Part shown: piece after piece, positions 5,065-10,879 of the stretch
How the letters are laid out: each line of letters begins with the position of its first letter
How positions within the stretch are numbered: position 1 is the stretch's first letter
Source of the DNA: Candidatus Hydrogenedentota bacterium
GTDB taxonomy: Bacteria; Hydrogenedentota; Hydrogenedentia; Hydrogenedentales; SLHB01
Direction: 5' to 3'
Assembly (NCBI GenBank): GCA_020849535.1
Contig: JADLGB010000235.1
Location: forward strand, 1-64,000
DNA: 64,000 bases
The notes under the pieces: model-generated
The model's database searches: none
Told to the model about the DNA's origin: nothing
What the model saw: only the letters and a program-made list of their open reading frames with translations
Position numbers and translations under genes: made by a program

Positions 5065-5121
5065 GTGGTAATATCCGTGTTGGGACCGGCTTGCAGTGAC
5101 AACACGGAGGTCACGAAGCCG

Positions 5122-6276
5122 ATGAACGCTGTGCCAACATCAGTGCGTCCTTATGCTGCCGCACCCTTTTTCATTCAGTTCCGCCCAGTCGACGGAAAGG
5201 GGCGTGATATCTGGACCGTCAAACTCGACGCCGATATCCTGACCCTGCTCATGCCGGGCGACAAGGCCGTGCTGCATCTCCACCGCGACGAAACGGCGCG
5301 CTACCTCAAGTTCTCTTATGACCTTGTGCGTGGGCGGATTCTGACCTTCCACGTCATCGAAGGATTGAAGAGCTACTCGTTCCCCTGCACCAAGGTCCAG
5401 ATGCAGAAGCTCGTCTCCTGGATGCCTCACAAAGAGCATTCGGAGATTGAGAATGAGGTCCGCGTTTCCGGTGTCGGCGTGGTGCTCTTCGGGATTCTGC
5501 ACGTGCTCCTGTCCGAGAATGTATGGGTCGGTTGGGGTCTCGCGCTGCTGGCCCTTGGGATTTCGGGTGTGTGCGCACCCAAGCGCGGCATGTACGGCTC
5601 CAATGGCGCCTTGATGCTGGTGGCGGGACTTGGCGACCTCATCGCATCCTCATTCATGAGGGTCCCGCGCGACGGCGGGTTTTTCGATCCGGCACTGATA
5701 CCGGTCGCGGTAGGAATCCTCTTGATCGTCTGGGGAATTCACCAATTGTCCATGCTGGGACCCAACCAGATGCTGCGTGCCGCGCGGGCCATTCGCGATA
5801 AGCAGGCTGCGCTATTCCCCGTCGAGTCACGCGTGGTCCGCCGCATCGCCCTATTCGACTTCATCGCGGGCGTTGTGTTCGGCGCCTATGCGGTGGCCCT
5901 GCTGGCTGCCGGAGGCCACTTCAACCTGCAGGTCCTGATGACTCCCCACGAATGGACGCCTGACCTCGCCGCATTTGGCGCCTTGTCGATTGTGTGCGTG
6001 GCTTCGGCTGTGACACTGGTTTTGCGTCGCCGTCCCGCGTATTTCGAGGCGAAAGTCACGGCGCAGATGCTTCTTGGGGTCATCGTGGTCAGCTTGTGGG
6101 GCCTTGCCGTGAGTGCTGTCACGGGACGCGCAGTTGCCGCGTTTGGCGACGCGTTCTCGCTCGACAATGTGGCGTATGCGCCCGTTGCATGGGTGCTGCT
6201 GATCCTCTGGGTGTCGGTCTTCAACCGCTGGTACAGCCACGCCGTGGATCGTGAACTCGAGGACCAGCGCAGCTAA
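5122..6276 (+). CDS. Polytopic membrane protein of unknown function
   Basis: The 384-residue product starts at ATG 5122 behind GGAGGT (5106-5111); an earlier in-frame start has no ribosome site. About the first 110 residues are soluble and contain no motif I recognise. They are followed by about seven or eight hydrophobic helices covering most of the remaining sequence, with short basic loops (for example around the RRRP stretch in the C-terminal third). This fits an inner-membrane protein with an N-terminal cytoplasmic domain. It stands alone between a terminator and a strong hairpin, so the neighbourhood gives no hint of its role. The real-gene call is firm; no function is assigned. Confidence 0.7.
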   Translation: MNAVPTSVRPYAAAPFFIQFRPVDGKGRDIWTVKLDADILTLLMPGDKAVLHLHRDETARYLKFSYDLVRGRILTFHVIEGLKSYSFPCTKVQMQKLVSWMPHKEHSEIENEVRVSGVGVVLFGILHVLLSENVWVGWGLALLALGISGVCAPKRGMYGSNGALMLVAGLGDLIASSFMRVPRDGGFFDPALIPVAVGILLIVWGIHQLSMLGPNQMLRAARAIRDKQAALFPVESRVVRRIALFDFIAGVVFGAYAVALLAAGGHFNLQVLMTPHEWTPDLAAFGALSIVCVASAVTLVLRRRPAYFEAKVTAQMLLGVIVVSLWGLAVSAVTGRAVAAFGDAFSLDNVAYAPVAWVLLILWVSVFNRWYSHAVDRELEDQRS

Positions 6277-6358: not shown

Positions 6359-6475
6359 TTCTCCCCTCCCCATCCTCGGTTTGAACTGGCGGGGCGCGTT
6401 TGTTAGGGTTCTGCGCTACGCGCTCTGCAAGGCGCTTCAAATGTCCCGGTCACATCGCAAGGAGTGCATCACATC

Positions 6476-7198
6476 ATGGGCAGTGGGATGATCCGCCGTT
6501 TTTCAATTCTGGCCTCAGCGTGCCTGGTATTTGCAGCCGCCTCGCATGCCGGCAGCATCGCGGGAACCATCACGTATTCCGGTGAAGTCCCGAAACTTCC
6601 GCCCGTCGACTTGTCGGGCGACCCGGCATGCGCGGCGTTGCACGGGGACAATCCGCCGGCCAATGAGGTGCTGGTTTTGGGTGAAGGCAATACGATGGGC
6701 AACGTGCTGGTGCGCGTCACGAAAGGATACGCCGTCAAAGAGTATCCCGCACCCGCGCAACCGGTCACGCTCACCCAGAAGGGATGCCAGTACTCGCCCC
6801 GCGTATTTGTGCTACATCCCGCGCAGACCCTGAAGATTCAGAATCCCGATGGGATCATGCACAACGTCCACGGCATGCCCGCGGTCAACACGCCATTCAA
6901 CCGGGCCATGCCGAAGACCCTGACGGAGATCGAGGTGCAACTGCCCAAGGTAGAGGATCCCTTCGAGATCAAATGCGACTTGCATCGCTGGATGCACGCC
7001 TATTGCGCGGTGCTCGACCATCCCTTCTACTGCGTTACCACGAAGGATGGGGTTTTCGAGATAGGGGGCCTCGAACCGGGCGAGTATGAAATCGAAGCGT
7101 GGCACGAGAAGCTCGGCAAGCAGGCCGCCACCGTTACCGTGGGTGCCGACGCGCCCGCCAAGCAGGACTTTCAGTTCACACGGCCCGCGAAGAAGTAG
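6476..7198 (+). CDS. Exported cupredoxin-like copper protein
   Basis: The 240-residue product starts at ATG 6476 behind AAGGAG (6459-6464); ATG 6488 is the alternative. An N-terminal signal peptide (RRFSILASACLVFAAASHAG) directs export. The middle of the protein reads as a plastocyanin-like fold: HNVHGMP supplies a candidate copper histidine, and the later C-x2-H-x2-M set (CDLHRWM) gives the classical type 1 copper Cys, His and Met. The C-terminal 50 residues (GVFEIGGLEPGEYEIEAW) look like a carboxypeptidase-regulatory-like beta-sandwich. It lies directly upstream of the oxidase subunit I gene and may carry electrons to the CuA site of that oxidase in the periplasm. The copper-ligand reading is seen in sequence; the electron-donor role is inferred from position. 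Confidence 0.75.
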   Translation: MGSGMIRRFSILASACLVFAAASHAGSIAGTITYSGEVPKLPPVDLSGDPACAALHGDNPPANEVLVLGEGNTMGNVLVRVTKGYAVKEYPAPAQPVTLTQKGCQYSPRVFVLHPAQTLKIQNPDGIMHNVHGMPAVNTPFNRAMPKTLTEIEVQLPKVEDPFEIKCDLHRWMHAYCAVLDHPFYCVTTKDGVFEIGGLEPGEYEIEAWHEKLGKQAATVTVGADAPAKQDFQFTRPAKK

Positions 7199-7264: not shown

Positions 7265-9013
7265 ATGACAGAAGGAATTAGACATAGCGCGCGGCGGGAG
7301 CCCGGCTGGCTACGGCGCGCGGTTTCCTGCGATCACAAGGTCATCGGCATCCAGTACGCCCTGACCGCGCTCCTCATGCTGTTTGTCGCCTTCTGCATGG
7401 TCTTGATGATGCGCTGGCAACTGGCCTACCCGGAGTCTCCCTTCCCGTTTCTGAGCAATTTCTTCGGAGAAGACGATACGCGCATGCCGAAGGGCGTCAT
7501 GCTCCCCAACTTCTACAACCAGTTGGGCGCCATGCACGGCACCTACATGGTCTTTCTCGCCGTTGTGCCACTGCTGGTGGGCGGATTCGGCACGTACCTC
7601 GTGCCGCTCATGCTGGGCGCGCCGAATCTGGCCTTTCCGCGCTTGAGCCGCGTGGGGTACCTCTGCTACCTCGCGGGCATCGTCATCATCTCCTTCAGCT
7701 TTATCACGCCGGCCGGGCCATCGAACTCCGGGTGGACGGGCTATCCTCCGCTTTCGGTCATTGAAACCGGCGGGCAGACGTACTGGCTTGTGGGCATCGC
7801 CTTTGTCTATCTCTCTTCGCTTTTCCTGGCCATCAATCTCATCACGAGCATCGTGCAGCTCCGTGCGCCAGGACTCTCCCTATTGCGTCTGCCATTCTTC
7901 GTATGGTCCCAGTTGGTGACTTCGTATCTGCTCCTGCTCGCGTTCCCTCCGCTGGCCGCGGCCGCTGTGTTGCAGTTGATGGACCGCCTCGAGGGCACCA
8001 GCTTCTTTCTGCCCAGTGGGCTGGTTGTCACTGGGAAACCACTGGACGCAAGCGGCGGCGGGAGCGCGTTGCTGTGGCAGCACCTCTTCTGGTTTCTCGC
8101 GCATCCCGAAGTCTACGTGCTGATCCTTCCGGCATTCGGCATCATCGCGGAGGTCATCGCGAACAACACACGCAAGCCGCTCTGGGGCTACAAGGGCATG
8201 GTGGTCTCGGCCGTGTTCATGGGCTTCATGTCGATGCTCGTATGGGCGCATCACATGTTTCTCACGGGCATGGGCACGGTCATCAGCACGTTTTTTCAGG
8301 CCACCACGCTGATCATTTCGATTCCGTCGATCATCATGGCCACATCACTGCTGGTATCGCTCTGGGGCGGATCGATCCGCTTCACCGTGCCGATGCTGTT
8401 CGCGCTTGCCTTCCTGCCGATGTTCGGCATCGGTGGTTTGACGGGCCTGCCTCTGGCTCTCTCCGCGACGAATATCGTGCTTCACGACACCTACTACGTG
8501 ATCGGGCATTTTCATTACGTGGTGGCGCCCGGTACGCTCTTCGCCATCTTCGCGGGCGTCTACTATTGGTTTCCCAAGGTAACCGGGCGCAAGCTCAATG
8601 ACACCTTGGGGCACCTCCATTTCTGGCCATCGTTGCTGTTCATGAATGCCATCTTTATACCCATGTTGTTGCAGGGGCTGGCGGGAGTCTCTCGCCGCCT
8701 GTACGACGGCGGCGCCACGTACGGCTTCGGCCAGGAAGTCTTCTTTCTGAACAAGGCGGCCACGCACTCGGCCTTCGCGCTCGCTATCGCTCAGTTGCCC
8801 TTCGTTATCAACTTCGTGTACAGCCTGCGCTGGGGCAAGAAATCGGCAGACAATCCCTGGGACGCCACCAGTCTCGAGTGGAATACGCCGTCGCCACCGC
8901 GTTTCGGCGGTAACTTCGACAAGCCTCCGCGCGCACACCGCGGCCCCAATGAATACAGCGTGCCCGGAAAGGCGAAAGACTTCTCACCACAGTGGGAGCC
9001 TGAAGAAGCATGA
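7265..9013 (+). CDS. ctaD: Cytochrome c oxidase subunit I, channel-residue variant
   Basis: The 582-residue subunit I of a heme-copper oxygen reductase has 12 or more membrane helices. The redox site is complete: H91 (low-spin heme), H280 with Y284 in AHPEVY (CuB histidine and cross-linked tyrosine), H329-H330 (CuB), H415 (heme a3) and H417 (low-spin heme), plus H407-D408 at the Mg site. Glu282 of HPEVY is kept. Two hallmark proton-channel residues are not. The D-channel aspartate (D132 in Rhodobacter sphaeroides, GAPD) is Asn121 in GAPN, with SR replacing the NN pair after FPRM. The K-channel lysine (K362, PTGIK) is Met358 in PSIIM. The gene is 66 bases after the cupredoxin gene and overlaps subunit III by 4 bases. 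It is clearly an oxidase subunit I; whether and how it pumps protons is open. Confidence 0.93.
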   Translation: MTEGIRHSARREPGWLRRAVSCDHKVIGIQYALTALLMLFVAFCMVLMMRWQLAYPESPFPFLSNFFGEDDTRMPKGVMLPNFYNQLGAMHGTYMVFLAVVPLLVGGFGTYLVPLMLGAPNLAFPRLSRVGYLCYLAGIVIISFSFITPAGPSNSGWTGYPPLSVIETGGQTYWLVGIAFVYLSSLFLAINLITSIVQLRAPGLSLLRLPFFVWSQLVTSYLLLLAFPPLAAAAVLQLMDRLEGTSFFLPSGLVVTGKPLDASGGGSALLWQHLFWFLAHPEVYVLILPAFGIIAEVIANNTRKPLWGYKGMVVSAVFMGFMSMLVWAHHMFLTGMGTVISTFFQATTLIISIPSIIMATSLLVSLWGGSIRFTVPMLFALAFLPMFGIGGLTGLPLALSATNIVLHDTYYVIGHFHYVVAPGTLFAIFAGVYYWFPKVTGRKLNDTLGHLHFWPSLLFMNAIFIPMLLQGLAGVSRRLYDGGATYGFGQEVFFLNKAATHSAFALAIAQLPFVINFVYSLRWGKKSADNPWDATSLEWNTPSPPRFGGNFDKPPRAHRGPNEYSVPGKAKDFSPQWEPEEA

Positions 9014-10076: not shown

Positions 10077-10879
10077 GCCAGTGGTGGGGACTTCCCGTGC
10101 TGGCGTCGGAACATGGCGCCCACGTTGACCGTTTGCTCATTCTCACTCACCTCTTCATCGCAGTCCTCTTTGCTGGATGGTTTGCCTACGGGGTGTACGT
10201 GCTGATGCGCTTCCGCAAGTCACGCCAGCCCCGCGCCGATCACCACGGCGCCCGAAGCCGCGCGACATACTACATCGAGGCCGTCGTGATCGGCGTGGAA
10301 GTCCTCCTGCTTGTCGCGCTGTCGGTGCCTTTCTGGTCGCGGTATGTGGTCGCGGTCCCGGACGAGGGTGAAGCGTTGCAGGTCCGCCTCGTGGCGCAAC
10401 AGTATGCCTGGAATTTTCACTACGGCGGCGCGGACGGTGTCTTCGGCCGAACGGCGGCGGAGTTCATCGATGACGAATTGAATCCGGTCGGACTTGACCG
10501 CGACGACCCCTTCGGCAAAGACGACATCGTATTGCGCAATCAGCTCTATCTGCCCGTCAACCGGCCCGCGGTGATTTGGCTGAGTTCGCAGGATGTCATT
10601 CACAGCCTCAACATCCCTGAATTGCGCGTGAAACAGGACGTTATCCCCGGTGTACAGACGCATGTATCCTTCGTGCCCACGATGACGACCGAGCAATACC
10701 GGACCATCAAGGGCAGCGCGGACCGCACCTTCGAGATCGCCTGCGCGCAACTCTGCGGCCTCGGCCACTACAAGATGCGGGGATTTCTACACGTGCTCTC
10801 GCCGGAAGCTTTTGCGAAATGGATCGAGGAAAACGCCCCCGACCCCAACGCTGTTGAGACTGATTCCTTCTTTTCCTGA
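10073..10879 (+). CDS. ctaC: Cytochrome c oxidase subunit II, CuA type
   Basis: The 268-residue product has two N-terminal membrane helices (about 20-45 and 66-92) and a periplasmic cupredoxin domain with the binuclear CuA site. Ligands are H177 in DVIHSLNIPEL, then C224, C228, H232 and M235 in the C-x3-C-x3-H-x2-M pattern. QQYAWNFHY at 109-117 is the aromatic electron-entry region. The residue between the two cysteines that is normally Glu (a Mg ligand through its side chain) is Gln226. No heme c motif is present, so electrons come from a separate carrier. The start overlaps the small CxxC gene by 4 bases. A 31-bp inverted repeat begins right after the stop codon. Confidence 0.93.
   Translation: MSQWWGLPVLASEHGAHVDRLLILTHLFIAVLFAGWFAYGVYVLMRFRKSRQPRADHHGARSRATYYIEAVVIGVEVLLLVALSVPFWSRYVVAVPDEGEALQVRLVAQQYAWNFHYGGADGVFGRTAAEFIDDELNPVGLDRDDPFGKDDIVLRNQLYLPVNRPAVIWLSSQDVIHSLNIPELRVKQDVIPGVQTHVSFVPTMTTEQYRTIKGSADRTFEIACAQLCGLGHYKMRGFLHVLSPEAFAKWIEENAPDPNAVETDSFFS

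Follow-up and report, generated by a model that had tools for sequence, protein, structure and literature searches.

A family A cytochrome c oxidase without the D-channel aspartate and K-channel lysine, and a candidate lysine substitute in subunit II

An oxidase operon with altered proton channels

The stretch of DNA analyzed here, 64,000 nucleotides of a Candidatus Hydrogenedentota contig (hereafter the window), carries a cytochrome c oxidase operon with the gene order I-III-small-II, in which a small membrane protein is encoded between subunits III and II (Table 1). The subunit I (COX1) frame is open and stop-free, contains no indels, and matches Pfam COX1 at 1.6e-126. Its best solved relative is the Paracoccus oxidase (1ar1_A, 1.1e-111, aligned over 16-547), which is also the best PDB fold match of the AlphaFold2 model (pLDDT 88.1, pTM 0.91; TM 0.85/0.93). 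TIGR02891 (CtaD_CoxA) scores the protein at 556 bits, below the curated cut-off of 670.75. The cupredoxin-like protein encoded upstream shares an HN...CDxH..M pattern among members of the clade described below and is a possible electron donor. The small CATCFG protein is kept between COX3 and COX2 across that clade, including at L016, L092 and L097, and possibly has a role in copper or CuA assembly. Further upstream, window positions 5065-6276 encode a 403-aa protein with several hydrophobic stretches, for which searches of Pfam and NCBIfam returned no match.

Table 1. Features of the oxidase operon in window coordinates (Pd, Paracoccus denitrificans numbering)
Feature	Position	Strand	Remarks and basis
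Cupredoxin-like secreted protein, carboxypeptidase-regulatory-like C-terminus (domain match below cut-off)	6464..7198	+	Upstream of COX1 in many clade members
COX1, A-family (A1, HPEVY motif) cytochrome c oxidase subunit I, 582 aa	7265..9013	+	Without D-channel Asp and K-channel Lys; Pfam COX1, alignment, tree, AlphaFold2 model
D-channel entrance and Asn gate: T110 (Pd N113), N121 (Pd D124, codon 7625-7627), S128-R129 (Pd N131-N132), G131 (Pd S134)	7592..7657	+	Alignment
Helix IV, mid D-channel: Y182 (Pd 190) and L188 (Pd G196), typical of the D-less group; S185 and N191 (Pd S193, N199) kept	7808..7837	+	Alignment
Helix VI HPEVY: CuB ligand H280, Glu282 (Pd E278), cross-link Tyr284, all kept	8102..8116	+	Alignment
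Helix VIII K-channel segment: S352 (Pd 348), S355 (Pd T351), M358 (Pd K354, codon 8336-8338)	8318..8338	+	Alignment
N403 replacing Pd D399, presumed to be the aspartate close to the heme a3 propionate	8471..8473	+	Alignment; residue equivalence assigned here, role from PMC4321873
COX3, subunit III, 194 aa	9010..9594	+	NCBIfam aa3_CtaE_Actin 8.1e-18, below curated cut-off; position conserved in clade
Small membrane protein encoded between COX3 and COX2, with a signal-like segment followed by a CATCFG motif; uncertain start codon	9837..10076	+	Conserved in clade
COX2, subunit II, 268 aa	10073..10879	+	Pfam COX2 3.8e-08; AlphaFold2 pLDDT 90.7
COX2 TM2: E69 (= R. sphaeroides E101(II), K-entry Glu) and E76 (+7, where Pro is usual), candidate lysine substitute	10277..10300	+	Profile-profile alignment, counts, model

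We read residue states from an alignment with Paracoccus (Pd) as the numbering reference. All six heme and CuB histidines (H91, H280, H329, H330, H415 and H417) are present, as in heme-copper oxygen reductases generally, and the HPEVY motif retains both Glu282 and Tyr284, the latter being the counterpart of the redox-active cross-linked Tyr of families A and B, with its own covalent bond predicted. A preliminary description of the gene had reported this intact core together with the loss of both channel hallmarks, and the alignment bears it out: the D-channel aspartate Pd D124 is Asn (N121, within GAPN at 118-121), the Pd N131-N132 pair is Ser-Arg (S128-R129), and the K-channel lysine Pd K354 is Met (M358). 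It had not listed further D-channel changes, namely Pd N113 to T110, S134 to G131 and G196 to L188, and Pd 190, an Ile (I190) in the protein's own clade, is Y182. Measured against the type A residue definition of Pereira (D-channel Pd D124, N113, N131, S134, S193, N199, Y35 and E278; K-channel K354, T351, S291 and Y280; PMC3084760), the protein has replaced the Asp, both gate Asn and S134 while keeping Y35, S193, N199 and E278, and it reads Met, Ser (S355), Ala (A295) and Tyr at the four K-channel positions.

This combination is unlikely to be chance, as D124, N113, N131 and K354 are each invariant in the lysine-bearing COX1 proteins we compared (56/56). The double loss is neither an error nor unique to the window. 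The same residue state was seen in about a dozen other genomes, dN/dS of COX1 against a same-genus copy is approximately 0.06 (overall range 0.06 to 0.18, with dS near saturation), and the model is confident, which together dispose of the misread frame that the preliminary description had named as a possible refutation. The source assembly is metagenome-like (7.83 Mb in 336 contigs), and an assembly or alignment artefact could be suspected on that account; independent assemblies showing the same state, the open frame without indels and the confident fold make the chance of one close to nil.

Lysine loss across phyla and a glutamate pair in subunit II

We built a COX1 tree of 85 rows, all A-type, leaving out the channel columns; similarity to the query decided which rows entered, so the phyla in the tree are not a census and its K-bearing set is a near outgroup. 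Sixty-three rows, from Acidobacteriota, Verrucomicrobiota, Planctomycetota, Omnitrophota, Fidelibacterota, Myxococcota, Bacteroidota and Hydrogenedentota, form a K-less clade with support 100/99, and nearly all of its members have an intact D-channel. The lysine slot holds Ile, Val, Leu or Met in this clade, and Leu in the same-genus copy (L097). As any aliphatic residue is accepted there, the match of the window's Met to the laboratory mutation K362M is incidental. Other K-channel positions have changed with it: Pd 348 is Ser in 63/63 clade rows versus 1/56 elsewhere, Leu usually replaces Trp358, and Ala or Gly usually replaces Pd S291. A later sample of 19-20 newly read high-identity loci (L130-L149, from genomes related to an Acidobacteriota member; L127-L129, fetched for other reasons, were left out) likewise showed Ile or Leu for the lysine with D124, N113 and N131 intact. 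Parsimony requires two changes for the lysine and three for the acid at D124, and the tree places lysine loss at the base of the clade, before loss of the D-entrance.

Several polar residues in COX1 are candidate newcomers: Pd 239 Glu, Q224, Q245, N297 and Q341. The first of these positions (window A231) is Glu in 42/49 D-intact K-less sequences, within PPLEAA of helix V, and Ala in the D-less group described below. Two other kinds of lysine-lacking relative came to light. Plasmid-borne COX1 genes of Dinoroseobacter and Catenovulum (L119, L123) represent a distinct K-less type: Gln replaces the K-channel Lys, the gate residues are altered, and the D-channel N199 position holds Glu. A COX1 relative at L070:7932-9689 has Val for the lysine and Gln at two CuB ligands (Pd H276 and H325); given these replacements and its position as sister to a canonical Methylomirabilis oxidase, it is probably a CuB-less or inactive copy.

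In R. sphaeroides, the canonical entry to the K-channel is subunit II Glu101. The preliminary description had considered subunit I only; subunit II of the K-less clade has a clade-specific TM2 glutamate that may stand in for the lysine. The window's COX2 has the CuA ligands H177, C224, C228, H232 and M235, invariant in the alignment and as found in cytochrome c rather than quinol oxidases, and its Mg-site Glu is replaced by Gln, a change shared by lysine-bearing oxidases such as L050 and L080. In the K-less clade, the TM2 pattern of subunit II is E-x6-E. In a profile-profile alignment E69 falls on E101(II) and E76 on a conserved Pro seven residues further, a register consistent with the spacing to the CuA-domain motif where the loop has its most frequent length. 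Two other registers, one from phmmer pairwise alignment (E101(II) column on Arg) and one from plain MAFFT (TM2 shifted by three), were overruled by these two measures.

At the +7 position, K-less subunit II sequences (n=41) have Glu in 38, Asp in one, Lys in one (L101) and Ser in one (L049, where the E-x6-E pair is present but one residue off, apparently misaligned), versus Pro in 34, Thr in 11, Leu in two and Val in one of the lysine-bearing sequences, with acidic residues in 0/48. Of the D-less members read, all but L101 retain the acid; in this intermediate it is as if the lysine had returned in the other subunit. E69 and E76 both lie inside the predicted TM2 helix (63-93 of the COX2 model) and nearly on the same face, seven residues at 1.5 Å giving a rise of 10.5 Å. 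By our own estimate from positions in PMC9687966, E101 of R. sphaeroides lies roughly 9-10 Å below K362. Based on the +7 counts and on this match in height, we propose E76 as a candidate replacement for the missing lysine, with a single evolutionary origin. Because the Glu arose once, at the clade base, its link to lysine loss comes without independent replicates, and because subunit II residues line only the bottom of the K-channel in R. sphaeroides (polyhedron list in PMC10341450), E76 may not reach the K-channel site.

Loss of the D-channel entrance in a nested group

The window's COX1 belongs to a D-less group of 14 rows (support 98/88) nested inside the K-less clade. The group is drawn from Hydrogenedentota except for L045 (Thermoanaerobaculia, Acidobacteriota), which sits on a long branch and whose place is uncertain. 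A Candidatus Hydrogenedentota COX1 that is 71% identical to the window's (L004) is the same protein as that of G053, a genome of the same order. At D124 the group has Asn in eight rows, Gly in four, Arg in one and Asp in one, although the residue of the partial copy L097 falls at a truncated end and is unreliable. The single Asp is that of L101, which has lost both gate Asn, and L094 has Asn and Thr at the D-channel Asp and gate. Among rows with the column read, S134 is Gly in 12 and Ala in one. Tyr occupies Pd 190 in 11/14 and Leu occupies Pd 196 in 10/14, and Pd 399 is Asn in 11/14 versus Asp in 49/49 D-intact K-less relatives. Glu278 is kept in 14/14, and N199 and S193 in most.

Gene content changed as well. 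A subunit IV-like gene is present in 33/33 K-less loci with an intact D-channel and genes for subunits III and II, and in 0/10 D-less loci spanning COX1 to COX2. In the D-intact loci L041 and L044, neither a subunit III nor a subunit IV gene was seen in the stretch, but both stretches, being short or differently arranged, carry little information. L045 is without subunit III, and in another D-less relative COX1 and COX3 are fused in one frame (L087:838-3240, minus strand). Elsewhere in the K-less clade, Gly (L125) and Glu (L124) at Pd D124 are separate cases, and these loci have neither a subunit IV nor a subunit III gene. A single origin of D-entry loss, with all D-lacking rows minus L101 as one clade, was disfavored (AU p 0.026), a result that is suggestive only, as the group was named after the tree had been seen. 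One genome (G020) holds a D-less oxidase (L085), a D-intact K-less one (L113) and a canonical one.

The nesting indicates that D-entrance loss is a later change, acquired as a package with the other D-channel changes and loss of the subunit IV gene. Placing the protein in a tree and aligning both channels across its clade, as the preliminary description had proposed, thus yields two losses, with the 63-row clade for the lysine and the nested 14-row clade for the D-entrance. Its claim that such an enzyme must take up protons by another path or work differently holds in part: a conserved, apparently functional oxygen reductase without either hallmark residue must differ from the textbook A-family enzyme in proton entry, but the K and D losses are separate and of different age and not one oddity. 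Together our results suggest that loss of the D-channel is the more recent event and that the ancient K-channel loss was probably accompanied by replacement of the lysine with an acidic residue in the partner subunit.

Function of the enzyme and comparison with known systems

We argue that the window encodes a working oxygen reductase, based on the kept metal sites, a low dN/dS that points to purifying selection, the retained operon and the confident canonical fold. It also looks accessory. A second COX1 was found in at least eight Hydrogenedentota genomes with the D-less type in the same search, and the window genome itself holds an A2-type COX1 with all channel residues (L001, contig C271). 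Proteins named from sequence and weak family matches as qNOR-like (contig C44) and CydA-like (contig C101) are also encoded there; the latter (L126, C101:24841-25392) has a C-terminal CxxCH heme c motif and a weak Cyt_bd_oxida_I match (54.9 bits).

The explanation we favor, with a probability of roughly 0.45, is an accessory A1 aa3-type oxidase that has kept O2 reduction, rebuilt its K-route, and lost or weakened pumping. The comparison shows that the ancestor of the many-phyla clade lost the K-channel Lys and that subunit II gained its near-invariant TM2 Glu seven residues above the K-entry Glu; protons may then pass from E69 to E76 of subunit II, on to the helix-VIII serines S355/S352 and so to Tyr284, a relay replacing the lysine. 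Within this clade the Hydrogenedentota group subsequently lost the D-channel Asp, the Asn gate and the subunit IV gene, and in most of its members the channel acquired a Tyr and a Leu while Asn replaced the presumed propionate Asp. Substrate protons would enter mainly by the rebuilt K-route, perhaps with some by the altered D-route, and D-channel-driven pumping would be lost or strongly reduced, so that charge separation would account for most of the energy conserved. The canonical oxidase next to which this enzyme would be accessory is the A2-type one of its own genome, whose channels are intact. A broader statement is more tentative: that a family A lineage swapped its K-channel Lys for a subunit II Glu and then dropped its D-entrance, leaving O2 reduction on a single rebuilt route in a stepwise two- to one-channel series apart from families B and C.

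Lost or reduced pumping, with substrate protons on the rebuilt K-route, is the most likely state, judging from the effects of substitutions in other oxidases, of which those at the propionate aspartate give a mixed picture. Pd D399 is presumably the aspartate near the heme a3 propionate, and the D407 change in R. sphaeroides reportedly has little effect. Mutation of that propionate aspartate, however, decouples pumping (PMC4321873). In D132N enzymes turnover is slow and is inhibited by the electrical gradient (PMC4321873). The gate substitutions N98S/T/D (bovine numbering; Pd N131, window S128) leave O2 reduction in place but eliminate pumping (PMC12901375). The preliminary description had invoked D132N and K362M as severe blocks, which are not simply transferable to a natural enzyme that is also changed at the Asn gate. 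Besides the reservations on E76 given above, other points count against our favored explanation. The retention of Glu282 weighs most: like S185 and N191 it persists in almost every D-less member, whereas B- and C-family oxidases, whose D-path does not operate, carry Ile or Ala in place of the helix-VI Glu (PMC12901375, Table 2), which argues that Glu282 still receives protons. The loss in the D-less group of the Pd 239 Glu found in its D-intact K-less relatives is also left unexplained.

The retained Glu282, S185 and N191 instead suit a D-channel that works without its Asp, with small hydroxyl residues and a new Tyr replacing the gate (N113 and N131 become Thr and Ser, and Tyr stands at Pd 190 in most of the group), so that protons reach Glu282 and pumping may persist. 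The R. sphaeroides D132N/N139T double mutant, reportedly described by Johansson et al. in 2013, is said to regain fast proton uptake with impaired pumping, and L094 has exactly this Asn and Thr pair. We nonetheless regard a rebuilt D-route as doubtful, since the change of Gly196 to Leu should narrow the channel, the same group has lost its subunit IV gene, and laboratory gate mutants keep turnover and lose pumping (PMC12901375). Convergence on the B-family design, with all protons, pumped ones included, taking the rebuilt K-route at about 0.5 H+/e-, is unlikely in our estimate. B-family oxidases do pass all protons through one K-like path (PMC6934443) and, without an active D-path, pump 0.5 H+/e- (PMC12901375), and T. 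thermophilus ba3 shares with the window's enzyme Ser at the T359 position without Lys at K362 and Gln for the subunit II Mg-site Glu (PMC12901375). That Gln is not exclusive, however, as it also occurs in the lysine-bearing L050 and L080; Glu282 is retained where the B-family has Ile; and most D-less members have Asn for the propionate Asp, whose mutation decouples pumping (PMC4321873).

It is also conceivable that the protein no longer serves as a respiratory oxidase and is a decaying copy or a scavenging, NO-handling or sensory relative with little turnover. Several channel positions vary inside the D-less group, one relative has an in-frame TGA (L100), and the window's genome also encodes a canonical A2 oxidase. 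Such decay or reassignment is nevertheless very improbable given the kept metal ligands, cross-link Tyr and CuA ligands, dN/dS of about 0.06-0.18, an operon retained with COX3 and COX2 in about a dozen genomes, and residue changes that are coherent and clade-wide and not random.

Models of how cytochrome c oxidase pumps protons are almost all built on the D- and K-channels and have been tested mostly with site-directed mutants. This enzyme is a natural test of proton supply without the signature residues of either known channel. Its clade provides a graded series, from K-less D-intact oxidases in many phyla through intermediates (L101, L094) to members without both, some of which sit beside a K-less D-intact paralogue in one genome. 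Whether a subunit II carboxylate can stand in for the K-channel Lys, and whether D-entrance loss abolishes pumping while O2 reduction survives selection, thereby become testable, and a family A label alone is insufficient for predicting pumping.

Natural K-channel loss within family A has been noted before, with seven losses under one evolutionary scenario, mainly in archaeal sequences (Degli Esposti et al. 2021, PMC8239418); the passage on these K-lacking oxidases does not mention a subunit II substitute or a combined loss of D and K. Our literature search, which covered openly available main texts, returned no description of either in the present clade. The preliminary description had also suggested comparison with CoxN-type oxidases, which did not help. 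The rhizobial CoxMNOP (CoxN) enzymes have an A1-type COX1 and belong to a group sharing about 40-44% identity with the query, but three such loci (L114-L116) have both K354 and D124 intact and fall in another clade, outside the K-less one, and we rejected this identity.

Compared with the B-family (Thermus ba3), the window's enzyme similarly has no K-path Lys and may have no active D-path, with the same Ser and Mg-site Gln (PMC12901375). It differs in belonging to family A (A1): its best matches are A-family chains, it groups with A1 oxidases in a tree of A-type rows, and it keeps Glu282 in place of a hydrophobic residue, B- and C-family matches being far weaker (ba3 chains at E about 1e-6). 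With the A1 aa3 oxidases of Paracoccus denitrificans (1ar1) and Rhodobacter sphaeroides (2gsm) it shares the fold, heme and CuB ligands, HPEVY Glu, cross-link Tyr and subunit II CuA site; unlike them it has no D-channel Asp, Asn gate, K-channel Lys or subunit IV gene, carries an extra Glu in subunit II TM2, and is encoded in the order I-III-small-II. With the K-less A1 oxidases it shares the aliphatic residue for Lys, Ser at Pd 348 and 351, the TM2 Glu pair and the neighboring cupredoxin and CATCFG proteins, whereas nearly all other members of that clade retain D124, N113, N131, S134 and the subunit IV gene.
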